A DNA stretch of 64,000 bases from Hysterangium stoloniferum (Eukaryota; Basidiomycota; Agaricomycetes; Hysterangiales; Hysterangiaceae): contig WHVD01000075.1 of assembly GCA_015178975.1 (NCBI GenBank), positions 248,001-312,000 on the forward strand, in the 5' to 3' direction. Both the position numbers and the translations under genes were made by a program. The notes beneath the pieces are model-generated. The model was not told where the DNA came from, did no database searches, and saw only the letters and a list, made by a program, of their open reading frames with translations. Shown here piece after piece: positions 15,418 to 46,635 of this stretch. How positions within the stretch are numbered: the first letter of the stretch is position 1; each line of letters starts with the position of its first letter.

Positions 15418-18348
15418 ATCAGTTGACAGAGCAAAAAAAGTGTCTCGATGCACCATGTCCTTGTTTTTTACTCTCCTGATAAGGAAGGCTATGATGTCAT
15501 GCTTATGTCATCAAATAGGTCAGATGTATACCTCTTACTTCTGATTCTTCTAATTTTTATCTATTTTATTTCTGGAACTGTGAACCCCTCTTTCCAATTT
15601 CACCAAACATCTGGATGCTTTTTTCGGTCACTGTAAGTTGAAGCCAAGCTCCACTACATTTATAGAGTTGGACCTCCCAACTAGTACAATCTCTATTGTT
15701 GGCCCCCCAATTAACTCATTTCTTATCATTGGTCCCCCCTGACTTAGAGCCTCTCCCCTCTTTTAGCTTAGATCTTAACAGTATGCATGATAAAACTCAT
15801 GGACTGTCTATACTGTCTGTACCAAACCCCATCAGTCTAGACAGTACTGTACACAGTAGCACCCATCCCTGTTTTCCTGATGTTAGATCCACCCAGGTAC
15901 CCATGTTGCTTGCAGTGGGAGGAACCTTAAGGTGTTTATGCATGACTTTTTTTTATTTTAAGACTCCACTATATGACATTAGAAAGATGATGTCTAGGAT
16001 GAGTGTATGCAGGTAGTGCAAGTATGAGTCTGCAATGTGCTTGCATAAAAATATAAACACTAAGTGATTGTGAGTAATACCTCAAATAAAGGACTTGAAA
16101 TGAAGGAAGCAAGTAATCACAGACATAAACCATGAAGGCCATCTCTAAATGCACATAGACCTTTGCATCAGAGCCACTCATCGATGGCCTTGTAGTTGAG
16201 CATGGTGCAGGGGTGGTACCCAGCTCAGCCGTGACTCCCAGGGCAAGCACAAGTGAGGCCTTCAGCGTTTCATTTCAGGGCATGATGTGTTTGCATTGTC
16301 GCTCAATTCAATGTCAACTATGCCCACTCCAACACAAAAGAAGTCCCACCCGTCTTTGGCGAACCATTCATGAACAGAGCGTGTGCTAATAGGTTCGTAT
16401 GCTTTGCAGCTAAGTGAGAGTACACCTGATGCGAGTAGCAGTAGCCTGAAGTTTCGTATCAACACAGAGACATACTGAACGTAATGCTTTGGGAGCGGTT
16501 ACCTCTGTAAATTACCCATGGGGCGAGCGAACTAGGTGTGTAGAAGCAGGCACCTACATGGAGAGACAATCACGTATTGCATAATGGACCACTTCATGGT
16601 GTACACGAACAACGGTTGCAGATACATCAGTAATGTGAATAGACCAAGACAGGGATTATGTACTATTGTGGAAGATGAGCTAGAGATGGGTAATGTATTT
16701 CAGTCAACACGCAGTGAGAATCGACTGAGGTATAATTTAACAGCCTTATACGTAGTTTGGGTGAACAATATCGAGAAAATATAGGAAATGGTAATCAAAA
16801 TGGTTGGAAGTCACGATCGGTACCCCATGAACCTGTGTTATAGTGTAATGGCCTGTAGCCCTTCAATTACAACAGAAGTTTTTCCTATCTCATTTTCTTG
16901 TCTTCTTCATTTTTTATCATTTTCCCTGTCACTTTATCTACTCCAGTTCATTGTGACATAAGTTTAGATGTTAGCTATGGTTAAAGGAAGACTGGCATAC
17001 GAGAACATGATTCCAGATGGACTGAGATGAGCAGCGAATTGACAGAATGCCGTGCAGGCATAGATTTAGTTTTTATTACTTGCGTAGCTGTTCAGAAACA
17101 AAAGCATGAGGAGTGGGATGTGATTAGTCAGTATCGAGTTACACTGCACTCCGATGAATGGTATTCAAGATGGAATTTTTTACTTTGATTCAAGCGGTCT
17201 CAACGCTGTCTTATAGAATACCTATGTCATAAATTCTTGCAACTGAGAAACCGTCGCAGCGCCATAACTCCTAGCTCACTAGCATGCAGTGTGTTACGAC
17301 CGTGTCGCAACCCTATCGGTCCCGAGGTTATTGCCACTTGTCAACGTTTCAAGTCACCATCTCGGAAACCATTGGCCCCGAAGCTGATGAATGTTTTCGC
17401 GAAGATCAAACTCCGTTTACGCCCACGTCAAAATAACTCGTATTGTCTGGTCAAACTTTGATACGTCCCCTTTATTATGTTGATCTGTTCAATCTTATGT
17501 TTCGCATATGTCTATCTATATTTGTAGTCCTTGAACTATTTCCTTTTATCGTAATCCCGCTCTCGGTTATCATCAGCCTCCGAACTAATCATAAACTTCC
17601 CATTCCTAGTCAAGCTTATTGTTAATACCGTGTTCCACCCTTCTCCCCATTAGTATTTTCCAGATGCCTGTTACTTGTATATGAACCCGCTGTAGTTATA
17701 GTCACTAGGCAATCAGAATATCGACTCAGAATACCCTCATATGCCTGTATCAGTCTCATACTAAGAATCCCCCCATCCGCCTTCACGTGTGCTCGTCCAC
17801 TCCCGGCCCCGACCCCGACCCCTTGGCCCGACGCTCGACTTGTCCTTCGATTCCGATCGGTATCACGCTGAAAGGTACTCATTAGGATTAGTCTTCGCCT
17901 GCCCGAAATTTAAGGACACCCTACGGATATTTGCGAGGGCGCAGCACATAAGCTGAAGCCAAGTCCTTCCGATCGGTCCCTGTCGGCCACCGACATTAGT
18001 CAGTTTTCAGTTCTTAACACAGTGCAGATTTGAGTCTGGCAAAGCCAGAATAGCTCATATTATTAACCAGGTCTAATTTGGCACATTTCTTGAAATCTGT
18101 TGACTACAGAATAATACAAAAGTTCATTTGGTTATCCCTGAATGCCCTAAATGAAACTAGCTCGAATGATAGGGACTCAAGGTAAGATATGGATATAGAA
18201 ACAGCTGAATCACAGGAAAAAAGTCAAACCATATCATACCATACAGAATAATGAAGATACCACTTACACATTCACATATATACTACACTAAACCTGGCAA
18301 CATCATCAATTTCCATATCCCATTCCAACATCTGTATCTGTTTTGAGT
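15418..18348. other. 2.9-kb segment inverted relative to D2
   Basis: The reverse complement of this segment matches 61051-63984. The left junction joins TTATTATTGAT to ATCAGTTGACAGAG, and the right junction joins TTTTGAGT to ACCTGAAACTC. In D2 the same four ends are joined the other way. Paralogous unit A (about 1690-1720) has the D2 order (TTATTATTGATCCTAAACAG), so D1 is the derived, inverted state. Inside lie a decayed LTR-like stretch (about 15430-15830), several short frames without good starts, and the solo LTR at 17292. No convincing gene. Confidence 0.9.
17292..18019 (+). mobile_element. Solo LTR (728 bp, family 3), D1 only
   Basis: Runs from TGTTACGACCGTG to CAGTTCTTAACA with the 5-bp duplication CAGTG (17287-17291, 18020-18024). 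The matching D2 site (61375-61379, CGCTG on the plus strand) is empty. Near its 3' end, about 17939-17965, it has the shared U5 box (GCAGCACATAAGCTGAAGCC). The same family is inserted independently at 62029-62754 in D2. Ty3-type by size and box. Confidence 0.9.
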
Positions 18349-19898: not shown

Positions 19899-20442
19899 TG
19901 TTACGACCCATTCCCGGATGTTTCAATATCCGACTTCCGATCTCCGACTACAGAACATCATAGTTACCGTATCATCTGCATTCTCCCCTTGTTCCACATT
20001 TGGTAATTTGTCCGTTGACAAGTATTCACTCCTTTGTTTGTTATATTCACATTTTGGAATATTGTCCCCCTAATATGTCTTATTGTATTTCCGTTTTAAG
20101 AACACTTCCATTTCCGTCTTATTATGGTCTTAGTTTGTAGTACAATAACAAGTAGACTTATATTAGTTTCTGCGAATTTGTACTTTACCTTAGATCTGAT
20201 ATTGACTTAGTTTCTTATTCCTCCTCCCGTCTTTCTGTACGCTCGATATTTGGAACTCTTTGGAACTCTGAATATCCATATCTTCCATCGTAAGCCTTAC
20301 TTCTGAAATTAAGGACTTAGAGCGTTTGCGTAGAGGTGCAGCACATAAGCTGAAGCCGACATCCTGACCCTATCTGATAGTTCCCGACTTCCCGGTGACT
20401 TTCCAATAGTTCCAGAATAAGTTTCTGACACGGCACTTAACA
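19899..20442 (+). repeat. 5' LTR of element A, with predicted promoter
   Basis: A TATA-like TTATATTA lies at 20158-20165. About 30 bp downstream, AGATCTGATAT at 20192-20202 is the likely start of R, because it is complementary to the primer site behind the LTR. The U5 box (GCAGCACATAAGCTGAAGCC) is near 20338-20357. Confidence 0.85.
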
Positions 20443-20444
20443 GT

Positions 20445-20455
20445 ATATCAGATCT
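20445..20455 (+). promoter_or_regulatory. Self-priming primer binding site of element A (11 nt)
   Basis: ATATCAGATCT, two bases (GT) after the LTR end, is the exact reverse complement of AGATCTGATAT at 20192-20202 in the LTR. It does not look like a tRNA 3'-end complement. This is the arrangement of the Tf1/sushi group, in which the RNA 5' end folds back and primes its own minus-strand synthesis. Confidence 0.75.
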
Positions 20456-21854: not shown

Positions 21855-24800
21855 CTGAGCTCTGAAGATTCTGGCTCCACACACTGTTTTGTAGATACCA
21901 CCTTTGCCTCGAAACATAATCTGAAACTCCATTCTGTTCCCACAATTTCCTTGCGTCTGTTTGACAGCACTAGCAATACGGCAATTACCCAAGCCTGCGA
22001 CATGTTTATCCAGTTCCCTTGTGGAACATCCCAGAAGGTTACTTTTTTCGTAACACAGTTGGACTCTAGCTGTTCGGTAGTTCTTGGATACAACTGGCTC
22101 ACCCAATATAATCCGTTGATTGACTGGGTATTGGGCAGTATTAATTTCTGAATTCCCGACACTTCGGTTCCTCCTGCAGCGTCTCTTCCGGCCAACGCCT
22201 TTTTGGCATCAACGGCATGTCCAGCTTCTACCGAAACCTCCGTGCCTCCAAAAATCTCTCTCATCACCGCTTCGGCATTTGTTAGGGCGAGTAAACTGGA
22301 TGGTTCACAGTGTTTTTTGATCAGCTGAAAAGTTGATGAAGCATCTGGACGTTTTGCAACTCCAGAATTATCCAAGCTAAAAGCCGACCTGGAAGGAGTT
22401 CCTGAAAAATACCATGATTTCGCAGACATTTTCAGTAAGCAGAAAGCTGACAGGCTTGCAACACATAGGCCCTACGACCTAAAAATCAATATTGAGCCTG
22501 GTTCAAACCCTCTGTTAGGACCTATTTACCCATTATCCCAATCAGAACTTTCGTCTATTTGGGAGTTCCTGGATGAACATCTGTCGATAGGTTTTATCCG
22601 TCCCTCAAAGTCTCCGTATGGAGCACCCGTCCTTTTCGTCAGAAAGAAGGATGGCTCCCTTCAACTCTGTGTCGATTTCAGAGGATTAAATTCCATCACA
22701 CGGAAAGATAAGTATCCACTTCCACTTGTTACCGATTTACTCGATGCCCCACAGAAAGCTCGGATCTACACCAAAATAGACCTCAAACACGCCTATCATT
22801 TGGTCTGAATTGCTGAGGGCGATGAATGGAAAACTGCTTTTTGGACTCGCTATGGATCCTTTGAATGGTTGGTTATGCTGTTCGGCCTTACCAACGCTCC
22901 TTCCGCTTTTCAATGTTTTGTTAATGATATATTTTCTGACATGCTTGATGTATGTGTTATAGTCTATTTGGACGACATTTTGGTATTTTCTGAAGATCCC
23001 GCTCTTCACGATGAACAGGTCCATGAAGTCTTCCGAAGACTCCGTAAAAACGGTCTTTTCGCCAATGGTAAAAAATGTTACTTTGACATGGATTCTATTG
23101 AATACTTAGGTTTCATTATTGGACCTGATGGTCTCCGTATGGATGAAACCAAGGTTCAAGTTGTCCGTGACTGGCCCAAACCATGGAAGTCAAGGACATT
23201 CAGTCATTTTTAGGTTTTGCCAACTTTTACTGCCGTTTTATTCAGAACTACTCAGACATTACAGTCCTGCTCACTCGTCTTACCCATAAAACTCAACCAT
23301 GGGTCTTTGACGACAAATGCCACTCCGCCTTCCAGACTTTAAAAAATGCTTTCACTTCTGCCCCAATTCTTTCCCATTGGAAACCTGATGTCCCAATTAT
23401 TGTGGAAACCGATGCTTCCGATTATGCAATTGCCACGATTCTTTCCATTCAAGATTCCGACGGTGAAATTCATCTGGTCGCATTCCTCACTCAACTACGA
23501 TGTTCATGATAAGGAACTTTTGGCAATTTTTGAAGCTTTCAAACATTGGCGCCATTATCTCGAAGGTTCCGCAACTCCCGTTGATGTTGTTACCGATCAC
23601 AAAAATCTCAAATATTTTCTACCACTAAACTTTTAACCCACCGGCAGGCCCGCTGGTCTGAATTCCTTTCCGCTTTCAACATGATTATCCATTTCTGACC
23701 TGGACGTCTTGGTGGAAAACCAGATGCCATGACTCGACGATGGGACGTCTATCCTAAAGAGGGGGAAAGTAACTATGCCATTGTTAATCCGCATAACTTG
23801 AAACCAGTTTTTACAACACAACAACTTTCCGCATCTATTTGAGCGACTTCCCTCTACTATCCAATTATGCGTAGCATCATGATTATGGACATTGAGCAAT
23901 TACATCAAGATATCCTTTCTGCACTCACTTCCAATCCGGTTCTCAAACCACACCTAGAAGTTCCTGACAATCCCGACCAACCCCGATGGTCACAAGACTC
24001 TCAAAGTTTTATCCATCTCGATGGATGTATCTATGTTCCAGATTCCAACAATCTTTGACTCCACATACTTCAGTATAAACATGATCATCCAATCTCCGGA
24101 CATTATGGCATTAACAATACTCTTGGTTTAATCCGTAGAGAATACACTTGGCCCAACCTCCGAGATTTCATAACCCAGTTCTGTAAGTCATGCACCACCT
24201 GCTTATGCTCTAAGACCCAGAGGTATAAGCTGTACGGCCTTCTCAAGCAACTCCCGATACCAGAAAAACCCTGGAACTCAATTTCCATGGATTTTATTGA
24301 ACAACTCCCGACTTCCGAAGGCTTTACATCCATTCTAGTTGTTGTGGATCAATTCTCGAAACAAGGCATTTTCATACCTCATGATACAATCACATCCTTA
24401 CAATTAGCGGAACTTTTCATTATTCATGTATTTTCCAAACACAAAGTTCCATCTCATGTAACTTCCGATCGAGGCTCCAAGTTTGTCTCCCATTTCTTCC
24501 AGGCCCTCGGAAAAGCCCTCGACATGAAACTACACTTCACCTCAGGATATCACCTGGAAGGTGATGGACAAACGGAACATGTAAATCAAACATTGGAACA
24601 ATATCTCCGCATCTATTGCAATTATCAACAGGACAACTGGAAATCCCTTCTTCCGATCACAGAATTTGCCTACAATAACTCTCCAAATCCAACTACCGGC
24701 GTATCTCCTTTCTCCGCCAACAAAGGCTATAATCTGAATCTCACTGTACATTCTGAACGAGATTTGGCTTCTGTCCGTGCTCAAGAATTTATTACCGACC

Positions 24801-25366
24801 TCGACGAATTACATCAAGAACTTCGGAAAGCTATTTCTTCCGCACAGGAATATTATCAACGTTCCGCAGACAAAAACAGGATCCTGCCTCCTAATTTTAA
24901 AATCGGTGATCAGGTTTTTGTAAAAGCTCAATTCTTCCATACTACCCGACCTTCTAAAAAACTCGCTGAGAAATTCTTAGGCCCTTTTGAAATCATAGCA
25001 CAAGCCGGTTCACTCTCATGGACTCTCCGACTTCCCGATAGTATGCGAGCAGTTCATCCCGTTTTCCACGTTTCCATGTTAGAACCCTGTGTTCTTAACA
25101 AAATCCCGGAATGTATTCAACCTCCGTCCCCTCCGGTCATCATTGACGGAGAACCCGAATTTGAAGTTTCCGAAATTTTGGATTCTAAAATCGACAATCG
25201 CCGACATACTTGTAAATTGCTCTATTTAGTCAAATGGGCAGGTTATGAAGGTACTGACGAGGAAACTTCATGGATATTGGCCACGGAACTCGGACATGCT
25301 ATGGAAATTGTTACTGATTTCCACACAGCTTATCCAAGCAAACCCAGACCTTTATCATCACTCTGA
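21855..25366 (+). pseudogene. Pol of element A: protease, RT, RNase H, integrase, chromodomain
   Basis: Protease: [10 protein letters not shown] near 21862-21890 and VVLGYNWL near 22080. Reverse transcriptase at about 22330-23180: YGAPVLFVRKKDGSLQLCVD, then [11 protein letters not shown] and the catalytic YLDDILVF near 22966. RNase H at about 23395-23640: [17 protein letters not shown] and [10 protein letters not shown]. Integrase: H2C2 finger HDHPISGHYG...CKSCTTC at 24080-24210 and a D,D-E core with MDFI, TSDRGSKF and GDGQTEHVNQ (24285-24600). A C-terminal chromodomain ([18 protein letters not shown]) lies near 25220-25280. Chromodomains in this lineage target integration to chromatin. Several stops (for example after HAYHLV, after IIHF and after DSNNL) sit where element C or the family has arginine, which fits CGA-to-TGA mutation. 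The open 359-codon stretch 24287-25366 is the integrase C-terminal half. Confidence 0.93.
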
Positions 25367-25461
25367 CCATTCCCATTTTCTTTCTGTTCAGCTTCCAACA
25401 CTTCCGTTACTTCCGATATCACACTCGTTTTGAAATCATACAAGTCAAAATTTATTTGCAT

Positions 25462-26525
25462 CTATTTTAAAGTCTCTGACACCCCGAATCCTCCTTCCAT
25501 TTCTACTCCCATATCATCCGCAATCTCCGCACTTTCCACCATATCCTGTACCTCTTCATCTTCACTTTCCAGCCCATTTCCTGACTCCCACCTTTTCTCA
25601 ACACATTCTGCCAATGGATCATTAGGCTGTTCCCGTGCCTTATCGGAAAATCTCTCAGAAACTGCGATAATACCGATGCTAACCATTACCTTCTCCAGGA
25701 ATTCGTTTTGCCTCCAGAAGCTTTGGATCAATGAATGGAAACCTTTTTCCTGGATCTCATTATGGCGATCTAGTGTATCCCGCATTTTCATGACTTCCGT
25801 TCCGATAAAGACTAACACGTCAACAGTGTCCTTGAGGAGCTCCATGCCCATACTGTCCATTTTCGGGACCTCAGTTTCCGCAGCTTTGGCCGCTCCCGAA
25901 CTTTCCACATCGTTAGTTTTCTGAGGCTTCTCACCTTTTGGAACCCTTTGTGAGGCGAGAGTGCACGGAAGTTTAAGAACCACGCAGGGATAGCAAGTTC
26001 CACCCCATTTTACCTTCTGTTTCCAACACGTCATATTCCATATGGAACATTGATAACACAGATTTTCATGGACCACTTCCATCCGTTCCGGAGCCTTGAC
26101 CTTTGGCTTCTGTTTCGGAAGTTAATCAAATACCGGCCTTTTTGTAGATGCACTTACTTTAGGACTCGAAGGTCCAGCCTCTCCCTCTACCTCCACCTCC
26201 ACAGCTTTTCGCTGTACCCAATATTTATCGATTGGAACCATGGAAACTTATGGATTTCACTTACCTTTCCTTCCCTTATCTCCTCACATTTTTTCGCGAC
26301 CTCTGACTCACGCTGTAACCTTTCTGCCTCTTCCTTCTTTTTCTGAGCCTTCGCTGTTTTCCGGATCCACGCTTCTTTCTCCACCTTTGCCCGCTCCAAC
26401 TCCTGTTTTTCCGCCTCTTCCGCATCTTTCAACTCCTGCATTAATGCCTTTTCCTCCTCCTCCTGTCGTCACCTCAACTCCTCCATCCTTTGTCGTTTTT
26501 GTTGAAGTTCTGCAACCTTCGACAT
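25462..26525 (-). pseudogene. Antisense accessory gene of element A: coiled coil + six-cysteine zinc-cluster-like protein
   Basis: A spliced gene on the minus strand converges on pol, with its stop 96 bp from the pol stop. Exons are 26525-26265 (87 codons), 26211-26158 (18 codons) and 26109-25462 (216 codons with stop). Introns are 53 and 48 nt with GTAAGT donors and CAG acceptors, all phase 0, giving about 320 residues. Exon 1 is a charged helix (KVEKEAWIRKTAKAQKKKEE). Exon 2 reads RKAVEVEVEGEAG. Exon 3 opens with a C-X2-C-X6-C-X10-C-X2-C-X6-C module (CYQCSIWNMTC...CYPCVVLKLPC), the spacing of Gal4-type Zn2Cys6 clusters. A long helical segment and an acidic tail follow (ESEDEEVQDMVESAE). One TGA in exon 1 (26471-26469) breaks it. 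A minus-strand TATAAAAA lies near 26652-26646. The homologue in element C has the same plan. The function is unknown; a DNA- or RNA-binding regulator of the element is my inference. Confidence 0.7.
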
Positions 26526-26781
26526 TTTTTGAAGTACGGCAATTTCGGTATCTGAATCTTCCGGGGTAGTGATGAATAGAGGCCGATGAATCAACATACA
26601 AGTTGTGGATAAAGAAACAAAAACATTAATTCAAATATTTGGAGGTTTTTATACTCAGAACATCAGCTGAAACTCTCACCTCCAGAATTGCGTAAATTTC
26701 ACGACACATAATAATCAGCCGTCACTTCAATCACTCAGTACCTAATCGCCTCTATGGGATTTCAGCCTAACAGGGGGGTAC

Positions 26782-27325
26782 TGTTACGACCCATTCCCGG
26801 ATGTTTCAATATCTGACTTCCGATCTCCGACTACGGAACATCATAGTTACCATATCATCCGCATTCTTCCCTTGTTCCACATTTGGTAATTTGTCCGTTG
26901 ACAAGTATTCACTCGTTTGTTTGTTATATTCCTGTTTCGGAATATTGTCCCCCTAATATGTCTTATTGTATTTCCGTTTTAAGAAGACTTCCATTTCCAT
27001 CTTATTATGGTCTTAGTTTGTAGTACAATAACGAGTAGACTTATATTAGTTTCTGCGAATTTGTACTTTACCTTAGATCTGATATCGACTGAGTTTCTTA
27101 TTCCTCCTCCCATCTTTCTGTACACTCAATATTTGGAACTCTTCGGAACTCTGAATATCCATATCTTCCATCGTAAGCCTTACTTCTGAAATTAAGGACT
27201 TAGAACGTTTGTGTAGAGGTGCAGCACATAAGCTGAAGCCGACATCCTGACCCTATCTGATAGTTCCCGACTTCCCGGTGACTTTCCGATAGTTCCGGAA
27301 TAAGTTTCTGACATGGCACTTAACA
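26782..27325 (+). repeat. 3' LTR of element A
   Basis: 544 bp, the same limits as the 5' LTR, preceded by the G-rich tract CAGGGGGGTAC. It keeps AGATCTGATAT, so the self-priming complement is conserved in both LTRs. Confidence 0.93.
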
Positions 27326-27724
27326 ATAGTCTGGCAGATGTTGTACATACAATCCAGTCAGAAAATCAGCTTAGATTCCCCCCAGTAATCTAATACATTT
27401 TCCGCTCTAAACTCCTACTTGAATTACACTGCTCATGCTAGTCAGAGCCCACGGGCTCCAGCGCATCTATCTCTCTTATTTATCTTGACTCCCGATCTCT
27501 CAACCCACAACCTCCAACCTACAACCCCTCGACCCACAAACCCTGCCCGGACTCCCTGGGATTCCTGTCCGCCTGTCTGAAATTGGACAACACGATCTCG
27601 CAAGGGTGCAGCCTATAAGCTGAAGCCAAGTCCTACCGGATATTCCATGGGTTTCTCCGGAAACCTGCCGTGTACGTACCCTAACAGCTCTTGAAAATGA
27701 ATAGTATATACAGAAAACCTTTTA

Positions 27725-27755
27725 TTAGGGGTTAGGGTTAGGGTTAGGGTTAGGG
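27725..27755 (+). repeat. Interstitial telomere-like TTAGGG run
   Basis: Four perfect TTAGGG units (27732-27755) follow an imperfect TTAGGGG. X2 has three perfect units at 35464-35481. They lie between the two solo LTRs. TTAGGG is the usual telomere repeat of filamentous fungi. Confidence 0.9.
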
Positions 27756-27834
27756 TCTTGCTATGCCTCTACATGTTAGGACAACACTAACAAGGTTACC
27801 AAAACACAAAGAGGAAACAAGAGATAAGACAAAG

Positions 27835-28581
27835 TGTTAAGAGTCATGCATGGAGCTTATTGGAGGGTTTCTGGAGAAACCTGCAGGAAAGCAGGTAGGA
27901 CTTGGCTTCAGCTTATAGACTGCACCCTTGCAAGATCATCTTGTCCAATTTCAAATGGGCAGATGGGAATCCCGGGGAGTCCAGGAGGGGCTCGTGGGTT
28001 GAGAGGTCAGGGAGTTGAGATAGATAGGTTGGTGAGTGATAGATGGGTCAGAGCCCATGGGCTCCCACGAGTAAGAGCAGTGTGTTTCAAAGAGGAGAAT
28101 AGAGCAGAAAATATACTAAGATTACTGGGGAGAATCTAAGCTGACTTTCTGACTGGATTGTACATATGTACAACATCTGCCAGACTATATAGACTGTAGA
28201 ATGAATAACATACCAAATCCAGTAATAATGAAAACTTAAACTAGCAAACATGAAACGAGATAAATAAACACCAAACTTGGTGTTAGGAATGGGATGGAAC
28301 AGAGTGGAGTCCAAATTGTGACAGATCGTAAAACCATAATGGGAATGGGGCGGGAGTGGAGTCCAAATTATAACAGGTCATTTGACCATAATGGGAATGG
28401 GGCTCAGTTAGAGAGCTGTCGGGTTTTCTGAGTGGGATCCAGTGACTGGTGTGTGGGACAGGGTTGGAGATATACAGGGGCAGAGTCCAGTGGGTATTCC
28501 AGTGACTGATACATGAAGTAATGAAGGTTGAGCATGGACAGGTCTGACGTATGGAGTCCGGTGGGTTTTCCAGTCATAACA
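27835..28581 (-). mobile_element. Family-2 solo LTR, minus strand (747 bp)
   Basis: The reverse complement of a family-2 LTR: it starts TGTTAAGAGTC on the plus strand and ends CCAGTCATAACA. It is flanked by the 5-bp duplication CAAAG (27830-27834, 28582-28586). The X2 copy is 35561-36307 with the same duplication. CpG-poor and therefore old; inserted before X duplicated. Confidence 0.9.
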
Positions 28582-29406
28582 CAAAGATGCAGAATAGAGG
28601 AAGAGAGGTTTTAGTGACTTAAGAATATCACACTTGTGTTTAGCAGAAATCCTAAGAGATTGAAATTGGGGTCTAGTTATATACATCCTGAAGTAGGTAT
28701 GTATACTAAAGAAAAATCTAAATAAAGTTTAAACTTAATATTTTGAACATGTATATCACATGACATGTGACATGTGACAAAATAAACTAAACTAAAATAA
28801 AATAAACACAAATTTAAACAGAGATAAAAAGACAAGAAAAATATTCAGAGCCCTGACACTAAGTCTCTTTATAGATCAGCTTGGGTGTTAGAATAAGGAA
28901 ACCTACCAAGACCCAGAACTCATCCTATATGCACTCAACCCTCTATATCATATGAACCACTCACCAGACTCTGACTGGACACTCCAGACCTGTCAGAGGA
29001 CTTTCTGTCACAGACCCCAGGGAGTACCATTTCCTCATCTTATTGAAGTCCCTGAGTCTACAGTCCGACCCCATGCCTTTTGTCACTTTCCCTCTCCTTG
29101 TGGATATCAACTACTCTGGCTAATACATATCTCTGAGGAGTAGGTGACTAACTTCAGGAGCTTGTAGCACTAGTGTTCCATTGTGGGAAGGGCCCCTGTT
29201 CTGTATTAGGTAGAGTAACTATTTTTGGACTACTGAATGCCTATGGGTCACACCTTGCAGGGGGAATTCCTTAGACTGTTTCTCTTCAGATTCTCTCCTC
29301 CTAGGTGAGTTAGGTAGTTGTTTGTATATATGTATAGCAGTTCTAATATAACTTTGGATTCCTTCCTGCTAGCCTAGTGTGAATACTATTGGTAGCAGAG
29401 GTTGGC
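28582..29406. other. AT-rich non-coding stretch of X1
   Basis: Matches 36308-37129. It contains AAATAAA-rich runs near 28780-28830. Short frames (for example 28952-29143) start at ATG but show no domain and are not credible genes. Confidence 0.5.
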
Positions 29407-30065
29407 TGTTATGACTGGAATTCCCACCAGACTCTGGGCATTAACTTATACGCACCTGCACCCTACATGCACCAATTATCAGTTTACCGGAATACCTGCT
29501 GGACTCTGTACATCAGACCTGTCCACACTTGACCTTCATTACTTCATGTATCAGTCACTGGAATACCCACTGGACTCTGTCCCTGTCTATCTCCAACCCT
29601 GCCTGTCCCATGCACCAGTCACCGGAACCCACTTGGAAAACCCAACAGCTCTCTAACTGAGCCCAGTTCCCATTATGGTCAAATGACCTGTCATGATTCA
29701 GACTCCACTCTGCTCTGTTCCATTCCTAACACCAAGTTTGGTGTTTATTTATCTTCTTTTATGTTTGCTAGTTTAGTTTTCATTATTACTGGATTTGGTA
29801 TGTTATATTCCACAGTCTATATAGTCTGGCAGATGTTGTACATACAATCCAGTCAGAAAATCAGCTTAGATTCTCCCCAGTAATCTTAGTATATTTTCCA
29901 CTCTAAACTCCTCTTTGAAACACACCACTCTTACTTGTTGGAGCCCATGGGCTCTGACCCATCTATCACTTGACCTCTGACTTATCTATCTCAACTCCCC
30001 AACCTCTCAACCCACAGACCCCACCCGGACTCCCTGGGATTCCCATCCACCTGTTTGAAATTGGA
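29407..30065 (+). mobile_element. Truncated family-2 LTR at the X1 / element C junction
   Basis: Starts TGTTATGACTGG like the LTR at 37130-37890. It stops within GTTTGAAATTGGAC, where the full LTR would continue ACAAGATGATC. At 30066 the sequence switches directly to RNase H of element C. This LTR is CpG-depleted while element C is not, so the two were not one element and a deletion joined them. Confidence 0.8.
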
Positions 30066-31881
30066 CTATTTGGAAGGTTCAGGAGCTCCTATTGACGTTG
30101 TAACAGATCACAAAAACTTGGAATACTTTTCTACCACAAAACTCTTGACCCATCGGCAGGCCCGCTGGTCTGAATATCTCTCCGCCTTCAACATGATTAT
30201 CCGTTTTTGACCTGGCCGTCTCGGCGGCAAACCCGACGCTTTAACTAGACGATGGGACGTCTATCCTAAAGAGGGGAGCAACGACTATGCAACGGTAAAT
30301 CCGCACAACCTGAAACCTATTTTCACGAATCAACAACTTACCGCATCGGTCCGTGCAACTTTCCTCGTCAATCCCATTGTCCGTGGAATTATCATTATGG
30401 ATATCGAGAAGTTACATCAAGATATTCTATCGGCAATTCCCCTAGACCCAATTACTAAAGCTCATCTGGACAATCCCGTGGACCCCGATCAACCTCGGTG
30501 GTCTCTTGATCAACATGGTTTCATTAGACTTGACGATCATATCTATGTACCGGACTCCGACGGCCTCCGCCTCAGGATCCTTCAATACAAACATGATCAT
30601 CCACTCTCAGGACATTTCGGGTACAACAAAACTCTATCATTAATAAGAAGAGAATATACTTGGCCCAGACTCCGTGGATTCATTAAGCACTATTGTAAAT
30701 CTTGCACTACTTGTCCCCACTCGAAATCTCAGCGACACAAGCCATACGGCCTTTTGAAACAACTCCCGGTACCGGAACACCCGTGGAATTCTATATCTAT
30801 GGATTTCATTGAACACCTACCGGATTCCGAAGGCTTTTCCGCTATTCTAGTCGTTGTTGACAGATTCTCAAAACAAGGTATATTCATCCCTACTTATGAT
30901 ACAATTACGTCCATGCAGTTAGCGGAACTTTTCATTATCCACGTATTTTCCAAGCACGGAGTTCCATCCCACGTGACTTCCAATAGAGGATCAGAGTTCG
31001 TATCTCACTTCTTTAGATCCCTCGGAAAATCCTTGGACATGACGTTACATTTCACGTCCAGACATCACCCAGAAGGCGACGGACAAACCGAACGTGTCAA
31101 CCAGACATTGGAACAATACCTCCGCGTATATTGCAACTACCAACAGGACAATTGGAAATCCTTGTTACCACTTGCAGAGTTTGCTTACAACAATGCACCC
31201 TCGGCCACTACTGGCGTTTCCCCGTTCTTTGCAAATAAAGGATATAATCCAAACATTACAGTACATCCAGAACGAAATCTCGCCTCTGCTCGCGCTCAAG
31301 AGTTCACCACGGACCTCCACGAGCTCCACGAGGAACTCCGGACTGCAATATTGTCCGTCCAAGAGCAATACCAACATTCAGTGGACAAACACCGGATCCC
31401 GCCACCCAACTTCAAGATTGGCGACTGTGTTTATGTCAAAGCTCAATTCTTCCGGACTACCCGTCCATCAAAGAAGCTTGCTGAAAAATATTTAGGTCCC
31501 TTTGAAATTATCGCACAAGTAGGTTCAGTTTCTTGGACACTACGGCTTCCGGATAGCATGCGCGCGGTACACCCAGTATTTCATGTCTCTATGCTAGAAC
31601 CTTGTACTGCTAACACTATCCCGGATCGCGTGCAATCTCCGCCTCCTCCTGTCGTCATTGACGGAGAACCCAAGTTTGAAATCTCGCAGATTTTAGATTC
31701 AAAAATTGACAAGCGTCGATGCACTTGTAAACTGCTTTACTTGGTCAAGTGGGCGGGTTACGAGGGCACCGATGAAGAAACCTCATGGATTTTGGCCACG
31801 GAACTCGGTAATGCCACGGAAATCGTTACTGACTTTCATACAGCTTACCCACTCAAACCTGGACCATTATCGTCTCTCTGA
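30066..31881 (+). CDS. Element C pol fragment: RNase H end, integrase, chromodomain
   Basis: Begins within RNase H ([17 protein letters not shown]) and continues [15 protein letters not shown], a TGA at 30208-30210, and then an open frame to 31881. From 30397 there are 494 codons without a stop. H2C2 finger: [10 protein letters not shown]...CKSCTTC. Integrase D,D-E core: [18 protein letters not shown] (Asn in place of the second catalytic Asp) and [10 protein letters not shown]. The chromodomain ([18 protein letters not shown]) lies near 31735-31800. The gag, protease and reverse transcriptase halves are missing. CpG content is much higher than in the X blocks, so this is a younger insertion. 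It is close kin to pol of element A but clearly distinct. The Asp-to-Asn change and the lost 5' half make it non-autonomous. Confidence 0.9.
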
Positions 31882-32086
31882 CCGCACCCCGCAGACCCCG
31901 TGTTACGTTTGGACTCATTTTCACTATTCCCTGTCGCCCTATGTCTCTCTTTGCTTTTACAGGTTCTGACATGTCAAGTCAAGTCTTTAAGCGGACTCTC
32001 CATGGACTTTGGCTTTGACTTTTATTTTTATGTTCTCTTTCACGCTTTACTTTATGTTCAATTACTTTCTATTTCTATGTTACTCT

Positions 32087-33084
32087 TCAGTCTACATTTA
32101 TGGGGCTATGTTTTTTCCCCGCTGCCTCAGCTACCTCCTCAGGGAGCTCCGCGACCTCCGCGGCAACCCCGTCCTCATCCGATCTGGCATCCTCGGAACT
32201 CCCAACTTGCGGCTCCTTATAGATATAGCCACCATACTCCGCCAGGAACTTCCAAAACTCCTCGCGAAGTCCGGACAGCTCCTTTGCCACCACAATTTGG
32301 ACCTTGTTGCTCTTCCGGAGCAACTCGTTTTGGGCCTCGATGCCCTCGGTGATCCGTCCAAGGACTTCGTCCAAGGACTTCGTCCAACCCAGACAACCCG
32401 TCCGTCCCGCTTACGTCTCACGCCCCGGATCCCGTGGCCTGCTCGTGCACAAGCGAGCACCTCGCCTTGAGGTGCGCGCATTGGTAACACCCCGGACCCC
32501 GACCGGACTTTCGATTGCACTCCGTGTTCCAGTCGTTACAACCAGAACACCACGGCTCGTTCCGCGTTGGTAGTCGGACTGGTGCCGCCTTCCTTGCCTT
32601 CTGTTGATATGGTCAGTTTTCATCGGTTATCCCACAGACATGAGGCCTAGCTTTTGGGGGCTCTCCGGCTCCCCCTCGGACTCCAACTCCACCTCTGTCG
32701 CTTTGCGCTGAAAATTACAAGTCAGTAAAGTTCGACAAGTTGAATATTGGGACTTACCTTTCCCGCAACAATGGCGGCCCTCTCCGCGGCCACCCAGGCT
32801 TTCTCTGCAGCCACCCGGGCGTTCTCCGTGGCCACTCGCGCAGCCTCCTCCGCCTCTCGTTCCCTCTCCTTCGCGGCCTCTTCCTCCGTGGCCAACGCTT
32901 CCTGGTACTCTCTGTCCAGGGCCTCCTCAGCCTCCCTCGCCTCTCTCTCCGCTGCTTCACGAAGCTGGCGCTGCTCTTCTCGCCACGCCAACAATTGGGC
33001 CGCCGTCCAAGGCGCCCGATACGGAGTGCCCATGGAGGGCCCTGCTATAGGCATTGGCTTGCGTGGTGTTGGTTTTGGTCCCAT
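32087..33084 (-). pseudogene. Antisense accessory gene of element C (homologue of 25462-26525)
   Basis: The layout matches element A: minus strand, between pol and the 3' LTR. Exon 1 is 33084-32758 (109 codons), starting MGPKPTPRKPMP and then an EAER/AREAEEA coiled coil. Intron 1 is 32757-32708 (50 nt, GTAAGT...CAG). Exon 2 starts RKATEVELESEGEPESP, the counterpart of RKAVEVEVEGEAG in A. The next donor is degraded and about 1 nt out of frame. Exon 3 has the six-cysteine module CSGCNDWNTEC...CYQCAHLKARC (CX2CX6CX9CX2CX6C), then a TGA and a 13-bp tandem duplication near 32355-32380 that shifts the frame, and finally a helical and acidic tail ending near 32087. A minus-strand TATATAAAA at 33134-33123 lies about 40 bp upstream of the ATG. 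The copy is broken but its architecture is conserved. Confidence 0.65.
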
Positions 33085-33284
33085 AGTGACGAAGATGGGG
33101 GTAATGAAGAAGAAGAAATTTCTTTTTTTATATAGGCTCGTCGCATTTGAACCTTACCTTCCAGATCACATGACTCTTTGACACATACGTGTAACCGACA
33201 TGACTTTTGACACATGCGCGTAGCCGACAAGAACCTTATTTAGGTCTAGAGCCTCTTTGGGACTTCGGCATAAAGGGAGGATAC

Positions 33285-34114
33285 TGTTACGACCCGGACA
33301 AATCCTGCCGGACTCCGGGCACTAACTCGTACGCCCCCACGCACTACAAGCACCAATCGTCTGTTTATAGGATTTCCTGCCCGGACTCTGTTACGTCAAG
33401 ACTCGTTACGTTCGACCTCATTAAGACACATATCAGTCACCGGACTTCCCCCGGATCCCATCTCTGTCTATGTCCGTCTTCATCCCATGCATCAGTCACC
33501 GGAACCCGCTCAGAATCCCGTCACCACTCTAATCGAGCCCCGTTCCCATTTTAGTCAAATGACCTGTCATGATTTAGGACTCCGCTCCCGCTCCATTTCC
33601 CGTTATGGGTTATGCTTTGTCACGATTCGGACTCCGCTCCATTCCGTCCCGTTCCTAACACCAATTTGGTGTTTACTATTCCTGTTTTATGTTTTGCTCA
33701 TTTCGTCTCATTATTACTGGATTCGGTATGTCATGCATTCCACGGTCTATATAAACTGGCAGATGTTGTACATACAATCCAGTCAGAAAATTAGCTTAGA
33801 TTCCCCCCAGTAATCTAATACATTTTCCTCTCTAAACCCTACTCTTATCAGATCACTCGCACTAGTCGGAGCCCACGGGCTCCGGCGCATCTATCTCTCT
33901 CAACCAACTCGACTCACGACCACGACCTCCGACTTACGACCCACGACCCGACTTACGACCCACGAACCCCGCCCGGACTCCCTGGGATCCCCGTCCGTCC
34001 GTTTGAAATTGGACAACACGATCTAGCGAGGGCACAGCCTATAAGCTGAAGCCAAGTCCTACCGGATATCCCGCGGGTTTCTCCAGAAACCCGGCCTGTG
34101 TGTGTATCCTAACA
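33285..34114 (+). mobile_element. 3' LTR of element C (family 2, 830 bp)
   Basis: Starts TGTTACGACCCGG after a purine tract (AAGGGAGGATAC) and ends TGTATCCTAACA. It is CpG-rich. It keeps the TATA box (GGTCTATATAA), the R-start AGTCAGAAAAT about 27 nt later, and the U5 box (GCCTATAAGCTGAAGCC, near 34040). The base after it (34115, ATAGG) is the first base of block X2. In X1 the same ATAGG follows the F-box pseudogene directly, which suggests that element C inserted at that junction. Confidence 0.9.
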
Positions 34115-34548
34115 ATAGGAAAGTGCTGTGACATGTGGCTTTTTTCAAATTAAGTAGATACTTCATCAATTTTGTATTGGAAATTATCAAAATAAAATGA
34201 TGTTTGACATTATTTATCAAAAGGTGAGAACTGTTACATGTAATGTACAGTTTCCTGGTGAAATATACCTTGTGCACCACTTAGTTTTAGCCTTTCCTTG
34301 AGTAATATTAATAATCAAATAAACTTACTAAAGTCCAAAATAACAAAATTTAACTTCTAAATGACATGGGTTCTTGGTTTATGCCAAAATTTGAATGTCA
34401 TGGCAGTTACATACCTTTTTAATTAGAAAGGTACTGTTGTGACACTGAAACAACTTTACTTATGGATGATGGAAGCTATAAAATGCCAAATGCTATGTGT
34501 TCTATACTCTATATTGTGTTTAATGCTCTATATTGTGTTCTATGCTCT

Positions 34549-35418
34549 TGTTACAACTGGAATTCCCGCCGAACTCTGGGCACTAACTTATATGCACCCA
34601 CACCCTATGTATACACACCAATTGTCAGTTTACCGGAATTCCCACTGAACTCCGTATGTCAGACTTGTCTACATTTGACCTTGTTACATTGTGTATCAGT
34701 CACCAGAATACCCACCGGACTCCGTCCCTGTCTATGTCTGACCTTGTCCCACACATCAGTCACCGGACCCCACTTGGAAAACCCGTCATCCCTCTAACAG
34801 AGCCCCATTCCTGTTTTAGTCAAATGACCTGTCACAATTCAGATTCCGCTCCCACTCCATTTCCCATTATGGTTTATGATTTGTCACGATTTAGACTCCA
34901 CTCCGTTCCATCCCATTCCTAATACCAAATTTGGTGTTTACTATTTGCATTTTATGTTTTGCTAGTTTCATTTCATTATTACTGGATTTGGTATGTCACT
35001 CATTCCACGGTCTATATAGTCTGGCAGATGTTGTACATACAATCCAGTCAGAAAATCAGCTTAGATTCCCCCCAGTAATCTAATACATTTTCTGCTCTAA
35101 ACTCCTACTTGAATTACACTGCTCATGCTAGTCAGAGCCCACGGGCTCCAGCGCATCTATCTCTCTTATTTATCTTGACTCCTGATCTCTCAACCCACGA
35201 CCTCCAACCTACAACCCCTCAACCCACAAACCCTGCCCAGACTCCCTGGGATTCCCGTCTGCCTGTCTGAAATTGGACAACATGATCTCGCAAGGGTGCA
35301 GCCTATAAGCTGAAGCCAAGTCCTACCAGATATTTCATGGGTTTCTCTGGATATTCCATGGGTTTCTCTGGATATTCCATGGGTTTCTCTGGAAACCCAC
35401 TGTGTACGTACCCTAACA
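34549..35418 (+). mobile_element. Family-2 solo LTR in X2 (870 bp)
   Basis: Flanked by GCTCT duplications (34544-34548, 35419-35423), the counterpart of the LTR interrupted by element A. It is 42 bp longer than that copy, exactly two extra units of a 21-bp tandem triplication at 35329-35391 (GATATTCCATGGGTTTCTCTG). The site where element A sits in X1 (ATAGT) is uninterrupted at 35016-35020. Confidence 0.92.
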
Positions 35419-35560
35419 GCTCTTGAAAATGAATAGTATATACAGAAAACCTTTTATTAGGGGTTAGGGTTAGGGTTAGGGTCTTGTTATGCCTCTAAGT
35501 GTTAGGACAACACTAACAAGGCTACCAAAACACAAAGAGGAAACAAGAGATAAGACAAAG

Positions 35561-36307
35561 TGTTAAGAGTCATGCATGGAGCTTATTGGAGGGTTTGTGG
35601 AGAAACCTGCAGGAAATCAGGTAGGACTTGGCTTCAGCTTATAGGCTGCACCCTTGCAAGATCGTCTTGTCCAATTTCAAATGGGCGGATGGGAATCCCG
35701 GGGAGTCTGGGAGGGGCTCGTGGGTTGAGAGGTCAGGGAGTCGAGATAGATAGGTTGGTAAGTGATAGATGGGTCAGAGCCCGTGGGCTCCGACAAGTAA
35801 GAGCGGTGTGTTTCAAAGAGGAGAATAGAGCAGAAAATATACTAAGATTACTGGGGAGAATCTAAGCTGACTTTCTGACTGGATTGTACACATGTACAAC
35901 ATCTGCCAGACTATATAGACTGTAGAATGAATAACATACCAAATCCAGTAATAATGAAAACTTAAACTAGCAAACATGAAACGAGATAAATAAACACCAA
36001 ACTTGGTGTTAGGAATGGGATGGAACAGAGTGGAGTCCAAATTGTGACAGGTCGTAAAACCATAACGGGAATGGGGTGGGAGTGGAGTCCAAATTGTGAC
36101 AGGTCATTTGACCATAATGGGAATGGGGCTCAGTTAGAGAGCTGTCGGGTTTTCTGAGTGGGGTCCAGTGACTGGTGTGTGGGACAGGGTTGGAGATATA
36201 CAGGGGCAGAGTCCAGTGGGTATTCCAGTGACTGATACATGAAGTAATGAAGGTTGAGTGTGGACAGGTCTGACGTATGGAGTCAGGTGGGTTTTCCGGT
36301 CATAACA
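35561..36307 (-). mobile_element. Family-2 solo LTR, minus strand, X2 copy (747 bp)
   Basis: Same limits and CAAAG target duplication as 27835-28581. Confidence 0.9.
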
Positions 36308-37129
36308 CAAAGATGCAGAATAGAGGAAGAGAGGTTTTAGTGACTTAAGAATATCACACTTGTGTTTAGCAGAAATCCTAAGAGATTGAAATTGGGGTCT
36401 AGTTATATACATCCTGAAGTAGGTATGTATACTAAAGAAAAATCTAAATAAAGTTTAAACTTAATATTTTGACACATGTGTATCACATGACATGTGACAT
36501 GTGACAAAATAAACTAAAATAAAATAAAATAAACACAAATTTAAACAGAGATAAAAAGACAAGAAAAATATTCAGAGCCCTGACACTAAGTCTCTTTATA
36601 GATCAGCTTGGGTGTTAGGACAAGGAAACCTACCAAGACCCAGAACTCATCCTATATGCACTCAACCCTCTATACATATCATATGAACCAGTCACCAGAC
36701 TCTGACTGGACACTCCAGACCTGTCAGGGGACTTTCTGTCACAGACCCCAGGGAGTACCATTTCCTCATCTTATTAAAGTCCCTGAGTCCACAGTCCAAC
36801 CCCATGCCTTTTGTCACTTTCCCTCTCTTTGTGGATATCAACTACTCTGGCTAATACATGTCTCTGAGGAGTAAGTGACTAACTTCAGGAGCTTGTAGCA
36901 CTAGTGTTCCATTGTGGGAAGGGTCCCTGTTCTGTATTAGGTAGAGTAACTATTTTTGGGTGCCTATGGGTCACACCTTGCAGGGGGAATTCCTTAGACT
37001 GTTTCTCTTCAGATTCTCTCCTGCTAGGTGAGTTAGGTAGTTGTTTGTATATATGTATAGCAGTTCTAATATAACTTTGGATTCCTTCCTGCTAGCCTAG
37101 TGTGAATACTATTGGTAGCAGGGGTTGGC

Positions 37130-37890
37130 TGTTATGACTAGAATTCCCACTGGACTCTGGGCACTAACTTATACGCACCCACACCCTACATGCACCAATT
37201 ATCAGTTTACCAGAATACCTGCTGGACTCTGTACATCAGACCTGTCCACACTTGACCTTCATTACTTCATGTATCAGTCACTGGAATACCCGCTGGACTC
37301 TGTCCCTGTCTATCTCCAACCCTGCCTGTCCCATGCACCAGTCACTGGAACCCACTTGGAAAACCCAACAGCTCTCTAACTGAGCCCAGTTCCCATTATG
37401 GTCAAATGACCTGTCATGATTCGGACTCTGCTCTGCTCTGTTCCATTCCTAACACCAAGTTTGGTGTTTATTTATCTTCTTTTATGTTTGCTAGTTTAGT
37501 TTTCATTATTACTGGATTTGGTATGTTATTCATTCCACAGTCTATATAGTCTGGCAGATGTTGTACATACAATCCAGTCAGAAAATCAGCTTAGATTCTC
37601 CCCAGTAATCTTAGTATATTTTCTGCTCTAAACTCCTCTTTGAAACACACCACTCTTACTTGTTGGAGCCCACGGGCTCCGACCCATCTATCACTTGACC
37701 TCTGACTTATCTATCTTGACTCCCCAACCTCTCAACCCACGGACCCCACCCGGACTCCCTGGGATTCCCATCCACCTGTTTGAAATTGGACAAGATGATC
37801 TTACGAGGGCGCAGCCTATAAGCTGAAGCCAAGTCCTACCAACATTCCCGTGGGTTTCTCTGGAAACCCTCCATGTACGCAAAATTAACA
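37130..37890 (+). mobile_element. Family-2 5' LTR followed by gag (element E)
   Basis: 761 bp from TGTTATGACTAG to GCAAAATTAACA. TATA (GTCTATATAG) is followed by the R-start AGTCAGAAAAT at 37576-37586. The U5 box is near 37810. Because a primer site and gag follow, this is the 5' LTR of a real element whose 3' part is lost. Confidence 0.88.
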
Positions 37891-39094: not shown

Positions 39095-39790
39095 TTGCAT
39101 TACGTAAGGTGCCGCTAAATTTGTGTGGAAATATTGCTGAAAGTTGCGAACCTTGTAGCTTGCTCAATAATTGACCAATTGTCTTGTAACTTCATATACT
39201 GTATGTATTTTACTACTATATATCTAGTATATTATGATGTTATAACTCCAAAATTTGACCTACAGCATGTTTCCCAAAATTGCAGTCCATTTGAGCTTGT
39301 GAACCAATTCATGAGCCAACAAATGTGTCACTCCCAATGAGCTTGTAATATGTTGTTTTATATGTATCTAGGTAGTAAAAAATGACAGCACCTGGCATTT
39401 ACTGTCTAAATACCAGCTGCAAACCTGTATGAGGGTAGTTGTATGCATTTACTCAGCAACCTCACTCACATTAGCTCTGACCGCAAAAGCCAGGTGCTGT
39501 CATTTTTTACTACCTAGATACATGTAAAACAGCATATTACAAGTTCATTGGGAGTGACACATCTGTTGGCTCATGAATTGGTTCACAAGCTCAAATGGAC
39601 TGCAATTTTGGGAAACATGCTGTAGGTCAAATTTTGGAGTTATAACATCATAATATACTAGATATATAGTATTAAAATACCTATATTAAGTTACAAGACA
39701 ATTGGTCAAGTATTGAGCAAGCTACGAGGTTCGCAACTTTCAGCAATATTTCTGCACAAATCTAGTGCACGCCTTACATATGTAATGCAA
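39095..39790. mobile_element. Foldback element with ~302-bp inverted arms
   Basis: 39095-39396 and 39489-39790 are inverted repeats with a few mismatches and small indels, separated by a 92-bp loop. The outer tips are TTGCATTAC and GTAATGCAA; the inner tips are TAGTAAAAAATGACAGCACC and its complement. Each arm contains TTGACCTACAGCATGTTTCC. No open frame codes for a transposase, and no clear target duplication was found. It resembles foldback or large-TIR MITE elements and would fold into a long hairpin if transcribed. Confidence 0.85.
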
Positions 39791-46015: not shown

Positions 46016-46635
46016 TACCCAAAAGAGCAGAGTAGTGACTATTCCACAGTAAACCCACATAATCTGAAACCTATTTTCATGACTATGCAACTTTCTGCAT
46101 CAGTCTGTACTATTTATCCTATCCATCCAGTCATGTATGGCATCATCATTGTGGACATTGAGAAACTACACCAAGACATTCTATTGGCAATTCTACTAGA
46201 TCCCATAACCAAGGCTCATCTCAACAATCCTGCAGACCCCAACCCAGTGGTCCCAAGACCCACATGTTTTCATTAGACTTAACAACCACATATATGTACT
46301 GGACTCTGATTGACTCTGCAAGCCATAGAAGCTGTGAGACTCGTATGGTGTCTCAGATGAGTGATTCTGGGATTAAATTAAGTAAATTTGGGTACATAAA
46401 GGTCATGTAGTTAGCATTATACAACACTGTGCTTTGCCCTTATACATTGAGACTCACAAAATATTTAATGCATCCAGTACAAACATAACCACCTAATCTC
46501 AGGATATTTGGGCTCCACAGGACTCTAGCAATGGTCTGCAGAGAGTGTACTTGGTCTAGACTCTGAGATTTTGTTAAGCACTATTGTAAATTATGCATCA
46601 CTTTTTCATCCTCTAAAGTATACAGTCAGGGATCA
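46016..46635 (+). pseudogene. Decayed Ty3 pol, part 2 (integrase N-terminal region)
   Basis: Continues the element interrupted by copia: [27 protein letters not shown] and [13 protein letters not shown] match element C 30300-30480. The H2C2 region recurs around 46470-46600 in broken form. About 140 bp of unrelated sequence (46311-46450) sits between. Confidence 0.75.

Follow-up and report, generated by a model that had tools for sequence, protein, structure and literature searches.

What gene lies on the strand opposite pol in two LTR elements of Hysterangium stoloniferum, and what might its product do? We analysed a stretch of 64,000 nucleotides (the window) from an assembly of this fungus (111 Mb in 554 contigs), which is described as an ectomycorrhizal member of the Hysterangiales (PMC7550596). 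A preliminary description of the window had reported that two elements, A and C, carry a gene of common plan between their pol and 3' LTR, and had proposed that it encodes a regulator or a nucleic-acid-binding partner of the element. Here, we address whether this gene is real, whether it is selected as a protein, and which role best fits the evidence.

Two chromoviruses carry an antisense gene between pol and 3' LTR

Elements A and C are chromoviruses: in both, a chromodomain lies C-terminal to the integrase, and the integrase core (PF00665), SH3_Tf2-1 (PF24626) and chromodomain (PF00385) all score above the Pfam cut-off. Element A contains the following features.

19899..20445, + strand: 5' LTR, 95.4% identical to the 3' LTR over 547 nt
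24287..25366, + strand: 3' end of pol, with integrase core, SH3_Tf2-1 and chromodomain
25462..26109, - strand: exon 3 of the antisense gene, encoding a basic stretch (KPKVK), the six-cysteine module, a long helix (predicted) and an acidic tail, up to the stop codon
26110..26157, - strand: intron 2, phase 0
26158..26211, - strand: exon 2 (RKAVEVEVEGEAGPSSPK), acidic, holding the first half of a stretch resembling a nuclear localisation signal (NLS)
26212..26264, - strand: intron 1, phase 0
26265..26597, - strand: exon 1, charged, a coiled coil as judged by eye
26598..26781, - strand: candidate antisense promoter region, from the gene to the 3' LTR, marked by flank conservation
26646..26653, - strand: antisense TATA, in the internal region outside the LTR, within a block well kept in 44 copies
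26782..27328, + strand: 3' LTR, defined by comparison of the LTR pair

Pol stops at 25366, about 95 nt from the end of the antisense gene, and the two genes converge. The gene had originally been assigned to 25462-26525. Its end and its exons hold at these positions, but its start does not: an ATG at 26597, 24 codons upstream of 26525, is present in 44/44 copies, and across these copies the added codons have a dN/dS of 0.207 and, among 1056 codon cells, a single stop. We therefore reset the start to 26597. The copy in the window is broken by an in-frame TGA in exon 1.

Element C has the same arrangement.

30397..31881, + strand: 3' end of pol, with H2C2, integrase core, SH3_Tf2-1 and chromodomain (Pfam)
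32087..32600, - strand: exon 3 of the antisense gene, with a basic stretch, six-cysteine module and acidic tail
32651..32707, - strand: exon 2, with stops in 0/18 copies
32758..33084, - strand: exon 1, with its ATG in 17/18 copies
33127..33134, - strand: antisense TATA, largely conserved in C copies
33177..33232, - strand: two direct 27-nt repeats in the presumptive antisense promoter, 85% alike, with one CGG each on the gene strand, largely conserved in copies

Here too pol and the antisense gene converge, with about 205 nt between their ends. The 5' side of element C appears truncated, with A-like sequence starting near 30.1 kb, and direct and inverted repeats flank the element on both sides (27238-37879). 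This copy of the antisense gene is also broken: exon 3 contains a TGA and is frameshifted, and the second 5' splice site reads CT in place of GT.

The position and orientation given in the preliminary description were thus borne out in both elements, as was the exon plan: an exon 1 ending in GK before GTAAGT, two introns of about 50 nt, a short exon 2 starting RKA[VT]EVE[VL]E, and a cysteine-bearing exon. The cysteines follow CX2CX6CX10CX2CX6C in A and CX2CX6CX9CX2CX6C in C, within the range originally proposed. A minus-strand TATA precedes the start codon by about 50 nt in both families (in A, from the corrected start). In a tblastn search of the window, the antisense gene is confined to elements A and C. 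The window also holds two further LTR-like starts (TGTTACGAC) at 17292 and 62029, a degraded integrase fragment of another related element at 46151-46617, and an inverted repeat at 39197-39688 with 210-nt arms, 95% complementary and 72 nt apart.

The antisense gene accompanies the integrase at most scored loci

A genome search with the integrase of element A scored 113 of 4879 candidates and gave 114 matches, corresponding to 113 loci after two pieces were joined. Searches with the antisense exons, each returning the best 150 of about 690-960 candidates, together identified at least 174 places with exon 3. With a distance limit of 400 nt, at least 90 of the 113 scored integrase loci have a convergent exon 3, 84-181 nt from the integrase match; one further locus (C3) has an exon 3 at 782 nt, beyond the limit. 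Among the remaining 22 loci without a placed exon 3, all three that we inspected carry remnants of the gene with parts missing. Loci L072-L074 combine an integrase 94% identical to that of A with an antisense gene that lacks parts, and these elements may be helped in trans.

At several loci the A-type pol frame that contains the integrase match stays open for 1236-1239 codons, so the A family was probably active recently. In the C family, 26 of the best 150 modules share the same score and identity (3.6e-34, 122.7 bits); two of these, L058 and L059, are 99.7% identical over the gene, which suggests a recent burst. Many of the same-score modules sit near contig starts, probably because repeats broke the assembly.

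We found no relatives outside H. stoloniferum among the annotated proteins searched or in a scan of viral contigs. The protein search relied on shared five-residue words and annotated proteins, in part with about 8000 candidates scored; because transposon genes are often masked in such sets, the missing outside relatives are weak evidence. Four annotated H. stoloniferum proteins are related to the antisense gene and look like partial or chimeric models.

Splice sites and cysteines are conserved among copies

For family A, we chose the best 30 exon 3 matches and 20 of the next 21, and excluded six of these 50 loci for coverage below 85%; the 44 aligned rows comprise 43 loci and the window copy. 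For family C, 20 of 150 matches were picked by eye for variety, and after three exclusions the remaining 17 joined the window copy to give 18 rows. The integrase alignment has 39 rows; left out were eight loci with too little coverage, L001, which duplicates the window copy, and the remaining loci, which had no match. On the A tree, L013-L015 and L006/L007 are near-identical and may be duplicated contigs or alleles.

The splice sites and cysteines, which the earlier account expected to be kept in other copies, are near-invariant in these sets. In family A, GTAAGT is present at the first 5' splice site in 42/44 copies and at the second in 41/44, with AG at each 3' site in 42/44. In family C, all 18 copies have GTAAGT at the first 5' site and AG at the 3' sites, and 16/18 start with GT at the second 5' site. 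The introns vary by 0.12-0.24 per site across the two families while these sites hold, and we infer from the conserved sites and the reading frame that the gene is spliced from three exons. All six cysteines are present in 18/18 C copies and, per position, in 43 or 44 of 44 A copies; since the C copies were retrieved by their cysteine segment, conservation of the C cysteines is partly a selection effect, which leaves other parts of the gene unaffected.

Intact genes, open and with canonical splice sites, occur naturally in 6/44 A copies and 9/18 C copies. In family A, exon 1 (counted from 26525) is free of stops in 14/44 copies and exon 3 in 24/44. On the A tree, stops were gained on 40 terminal and 16 internal branches, with at least 35 of these 56 gains being CGA to TGA; 18 apparent stop reversions are likely parsimony errors at recurrent sites.

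The antisense gene is selected at the codon level

We calculated dN/dS for each exon in both families. Exons 1, 2 and 3 give 0.234, 0.189 and 0.216 in family A (44 copies; exon 1 counted from 26525) and 0.235, 0.202 and 0.256 in family C (18 copies). These values of 0.19-0.26 are far from the neutral value near 1 that would have spoken against the gene, and close to the integrase's 0.27. A codon bootstrap of A exon 3, with 20 of the 44 rows, gave 0.20-0.34. On the tree of family A, internal branches give 0.276 for the antisense gene and 0.286 for the integrase, and terminal branches 0.316 and 0.330; within this family, conservation of the antisense gene resembles that of the integrase.

Shifted frames give dN/dS values of 0.72-1.80 in A and 1.24-1.55 in C. 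We computed reverse frames for family A, where two give 0.90-1.44 and the third, whose third positions are shared with the gene, gives 0.21-0.39. For A exon 3, the wrong frames lie at 1.05-1.35, apart from the one reverse frame with shared third positions at 0.27. Over this exon, stop cells number 157-424 in the reverse frames and 24 in the gene frame, in agreement with the original remark that there is no sense ORF here.

The A copies were chosen by exon 3 similarity, which could depress the exon 3 ratio; copy choice does not explain the low values across the gene, because neither exons 1 and 2 nor the 24 codons added at the start were part of the query. Raw divergence is 0.077-0.126 in A exons versus 0.12-0.15 in A introns, and in C exons 1 and 3 it is no lower than in intron 1. 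As raw exon divergence is barely below that of introns, the case for selection depends on the codon pattern. Overall, the antisense gene is almost certainly real and protein-coding, and comparison of copies strongly supports a retroelement-encoded protein under purifying selection.

Predicted features of the antisense protein

The predicted protein is about 290-350 residues long and comprises a charged N-terminal part, the six-cysteine module, a predicted helix and a tail of acidic residues. Charged residues abound in exon 1, whose coiled-coil appearance was judged by eye. Across the exon joins runs a basic stretch, GKRK...SPKKPKVK in A and GKRK...SP(Q/N)KKARK in C, which we take to be a putative bipartite nuclear localisation signal that is complete only once both introns are removed. 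Among the A copies, 42 or 43 of 44 retain its lysines, as do all 18 C copies; the first arginine of exon 2 is present in 26/44 A copies (Q in nine, a stop in eight) and 15/18 C copies.

Zn2Cys6 clusters follow the spacing rule C-x2-C-x6-C-x5-12-C-x2-C-x6-8-C, and the spacings in A (2-6-10-2-6) and C (2-6-9-2-6) both satisfy it. When pieces spanning the module were searched against Pfam, Zn_clus (PF00172) was the sole match, at 14.9 and 10.7 bits against a cut-off of 21. The C piece matches with an E value of 0.03 in half register (residues 2-15 on profile positions 18-31), and the A piece, a blend of copies, matches along its length with an E value of 0.6. The Pfam search of the antisense proteins gave sub-threshold matches only: TAF4 in two of five (best E value 0.047) ranks ahead of Zn_clus in three of five (best 0.81), and the TAF4 score probably stems from the charged part.

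In a PDB profile search with both families, PPR1 (1pyi) aligned with all six cysteines in register at an E value of 1, below talin at 0.68; another profile search gave maltose-binding proteins at 0.74-0.75. A PDB sequence search with the C module alone gave no match. Structure models were poor, with mean pLDDT values of 65 and 53 (the C module, 60 residues from one sequence, and A exon 3 from three sequences), and fold searches with the poor C module model returned weak unrelated matches, none of them a zinc-cluster chain. The best-scored part of a poor model is a long helix at residues 77-151 of A exon 3.

In Zn2Cys6 clusters, DNA is contacted by basic residues in the interval from cysteine 2 to cysteine 3. 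In the antisense protein this interval has a single basic residue, an arginine three positions after cysteine 2, in 22/44 A and 10/18 C copies, and no second lysine. Like fungal Zn2Cys6 regulators (Zn_clus; PPR1, 1pyi), the protein combines the six-cysteine spacing with a predicted helix after the module and an acidic tail; it differs from them in scoring below the Pfam cut-off, in nearly lacking the basic loop between cysteines 2 and 3, and in having a charged part also before the module. As the cut-off is missed, we do not file the protein as Zn2Cys6, though it may still work like one. The proposal of a regulator or nucleic-acid-binding partner thus stands in part: the NLS-like stretch, module, helices and acidic tail are consistent with it, and the profile comparison names Zn_clus alone for the module, at scores below the family threshold.

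A candidate antisense promoter

The sequence between the gene and the 3' LTR looks like a separate antisense promoter. In family A, an 88-nt promoter flank varies by 0.063 per site, against 0.165 for introns without their splice ends (35 copies); this conservation may stem in part from sequence needed beside the LTR for reverse transcription. CGG is a frequent binding site of zinc-cluster proteins, and the CGG-bearing repeats upstream of the C gene are a candidate target of the antisense protein, as a lead only. The A promoter has a weaker direct pair of 13 nt. The only 8-mers common to both promoters are TATGTGTC and a TATA stretch; by a rough estimate, this sharing is about chance level, so we do not claim a binding site.

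The antisense protein diverges rapidly between families

Between A and C, the integrases are 82% identical over 359 codons, with a dS of 1.9 that places synonymous sites near saturation. Identity between the antisense proteins is 30-34%, and their alignment brings the six cysteines, the intron positions and the basic stretch into register. Across this comparison, dN is 0.84 for the antisense protein and 0.11 for the integrase.

Within family A, divergence at silent sites of the antisense gene and in its introns is about double that at silent sites of the integrase (35 copies). We rejected a CpG effect as the cause, since the excess persists outside CpG in these 35 copies: four-fold sites outside CpG diverge by 0.140 in the antisense gene (26 columns) and 0.068 in the integrase (52 columns), with introns at 0.138. 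The five most variable 150-nt bins of element A lie in or at the antisense gene (25450-26500), with fewer copies available for other parts of the element. Pairwise distances in the antisense gene and the pol-side gene are partially correlated, with r = 0.56 over 595 pairs. Recombination between elements is a possible cause of the raised silent divergence.

Relation to known antisense genes

Antisense genes of LTR retrotransposons have been reported since the 1990s, for example in Grande (PMC7264820). An ORF on the reverse strand, located after pol and before the 3' LTR, is reported for the plant elements Grande, RIRE2, Retand and PvRetro13 and for Boty of Botrytis (PMC7264820, PMC11963269, PMC8365987, PMC4227169). 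The H. stoloniferum gene shares the place, the orientation and the presence in most copies of the plant aORF-3R genes (Grande gene23, RIRE2, Retand, PvRetro13; PMC7264820, PMC11963269). As expected of this class, it is conserved within family A about as well as the integrase, although between A and C it diverges faster. For Grande, these sources report an own antisense promoter and a nuclear protein, and for the Retand ORF a TRP28/PF04195 domain thought to bind DNA (PMC7264820, PMC11963269). The plant genes differ in that Retand is described as a non-chromovirus and other domains are reported, and the descriptions given there mention neither a zinc-cluster-like module nor a three-exon plan (PMC7264820, PMC11963269).

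The nearest precedent is brtn of Boty in Botrytis cinerea, reported to lie antisense in a fungal Gypsy element that has a chromodomain; its host is an ascomycete, and we liken it to the H. stoloniferum gene by its published description only (PMC4227169, PMC7264820, PMC8365987). The arrangement thus has precedents in plant Gypsy elements and Boty. The preliminary description was aware of no account of it in basidiomycete chromoviruses, and the open-access literature searched yielded none of a basidiomycete or zinc-cluster version. The antisense position and orientation are of a known kind, and the three-exon, zinc-cluster-like variant appears undescribed in that literature.

A further comparison is HBZ of HTLV-1, which accounts of that virus describe as an antisense retroviral gene whose protein acts on LTR transcription. 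HBZ differs in being a bZIP protein with its promoter in the 3' LTR; no homology to the antisense protein is known, and the likeness is one of function only.

Discussion

Weighing our analysis as a whole, we tentatively favour a nuclear, element-specific antisense protein that regulates transcription of its own element, a reading whose likelihood we put a little short of even. In this model, chromoviruses of H. stoloniferum carry a third gene, spliced from three exons and read towards pol from what seems to be its own promoter. The protein would enter the nucleus through the bipartite NLS-like stretch formed by splicing, form oligomers, and bind DNA, most likely that of the LTR or antisense promoter of its own element. 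It would thereby set that element's transcription, much as HBZ acts back on the HTLV-1 LTR; the rapid divergence between A and C would fit element-specific recognition. A broader version, possible but rather doubtful, holds that basidiomycete chromoviruses took up or evolved an antisense zinc-cluster regulator that recognises the DNA of its own family, a fungal counterpart of HBZ, and that regulator and target diverge fast as a pair (dN about eightfold that of integrase) so that families avoid cross-control.

The protein could instead act after transcription or at integration, as a nuclear partner of the integrase or pre-integration complex in import or chromatin tethering. The NLS-like stretch fits such a role, as does constraint on the antisense gene as strong as that on the integrase, and the authors of a review suggest nuclear roles for plant antisense ORFs (PMC7264820). 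Two points make this unlikely in our judgement: a separate antisense promoter would uncouple the protein's dosage from that of gag-pol, and the gap between the two proteins in A-C divergence does not suggest close co-adaptation with the integrase.

Alternatively, the gene might limit its own element as a form of self-restriction or copy-number control, with elements that lose it still spreading. All three elements inspected with an integrase 94% identical to that of A have a damaged antisense gene beside it, and rapid divergence between families would avoid cross-repression. Such deletion derivatives could equally depend on help in trans, or the loss of the gene could have followed insertion, and the gene is kept at most of the scored integrase loci, at least 90 of 113; we regard self-restriction too as rather improbable.

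We assign a low probability to a captured host zinc-cluster gene carried as mere cargo. Zn2Cys6 genes are abundant in fungi, but two diverged families have the gene in the same place with the same introns and under selection as strict as that on the integrase, and our protein searches, limited as described, found no host progenitor.

It is very improbable that the antisense RNA matters and the protein does not, with convergent transcription yielding double-stranded RNA for silencing. The facing ends of pol and the antisense gene, about 95 nt apart in A and 205 nt in C, suit such a scheme; the codon-level selection, at a dN/dS near 0.2, and the kept cysteines show that the protein is selected, which an RNA-only role would not produce. 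An additional RNA effect beside the protein is possible. Finally, a chance ORF or a side effect of sense-strand coding can be practically dismissed, because the sense frame is not open, the introns vary and the splice sites do not, the other wrong frames mostly lie around 1 or above, and the one reverse frame with a low dN/dS, an expected consequence of its sharing third positions with the gene, is interrupted by 157 stop cells in exon 3.

Returning to the favoured model of a nuclear regulator of the element's own transcription, the gene family is represented by many copies, its exon structure is clear, selection on it shows at the codon level, and its module can be tested for zinc and DNA binding, all in an ectomycorrhizal fungus. 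The partial or chimeric appearance of its four annotated relatives suggests that spliced antisense genes in transposons are missed by standard annotation. The family offers a concrete way to ask whether the antisense genes of LTR elements are HBZ-like self-regulators.
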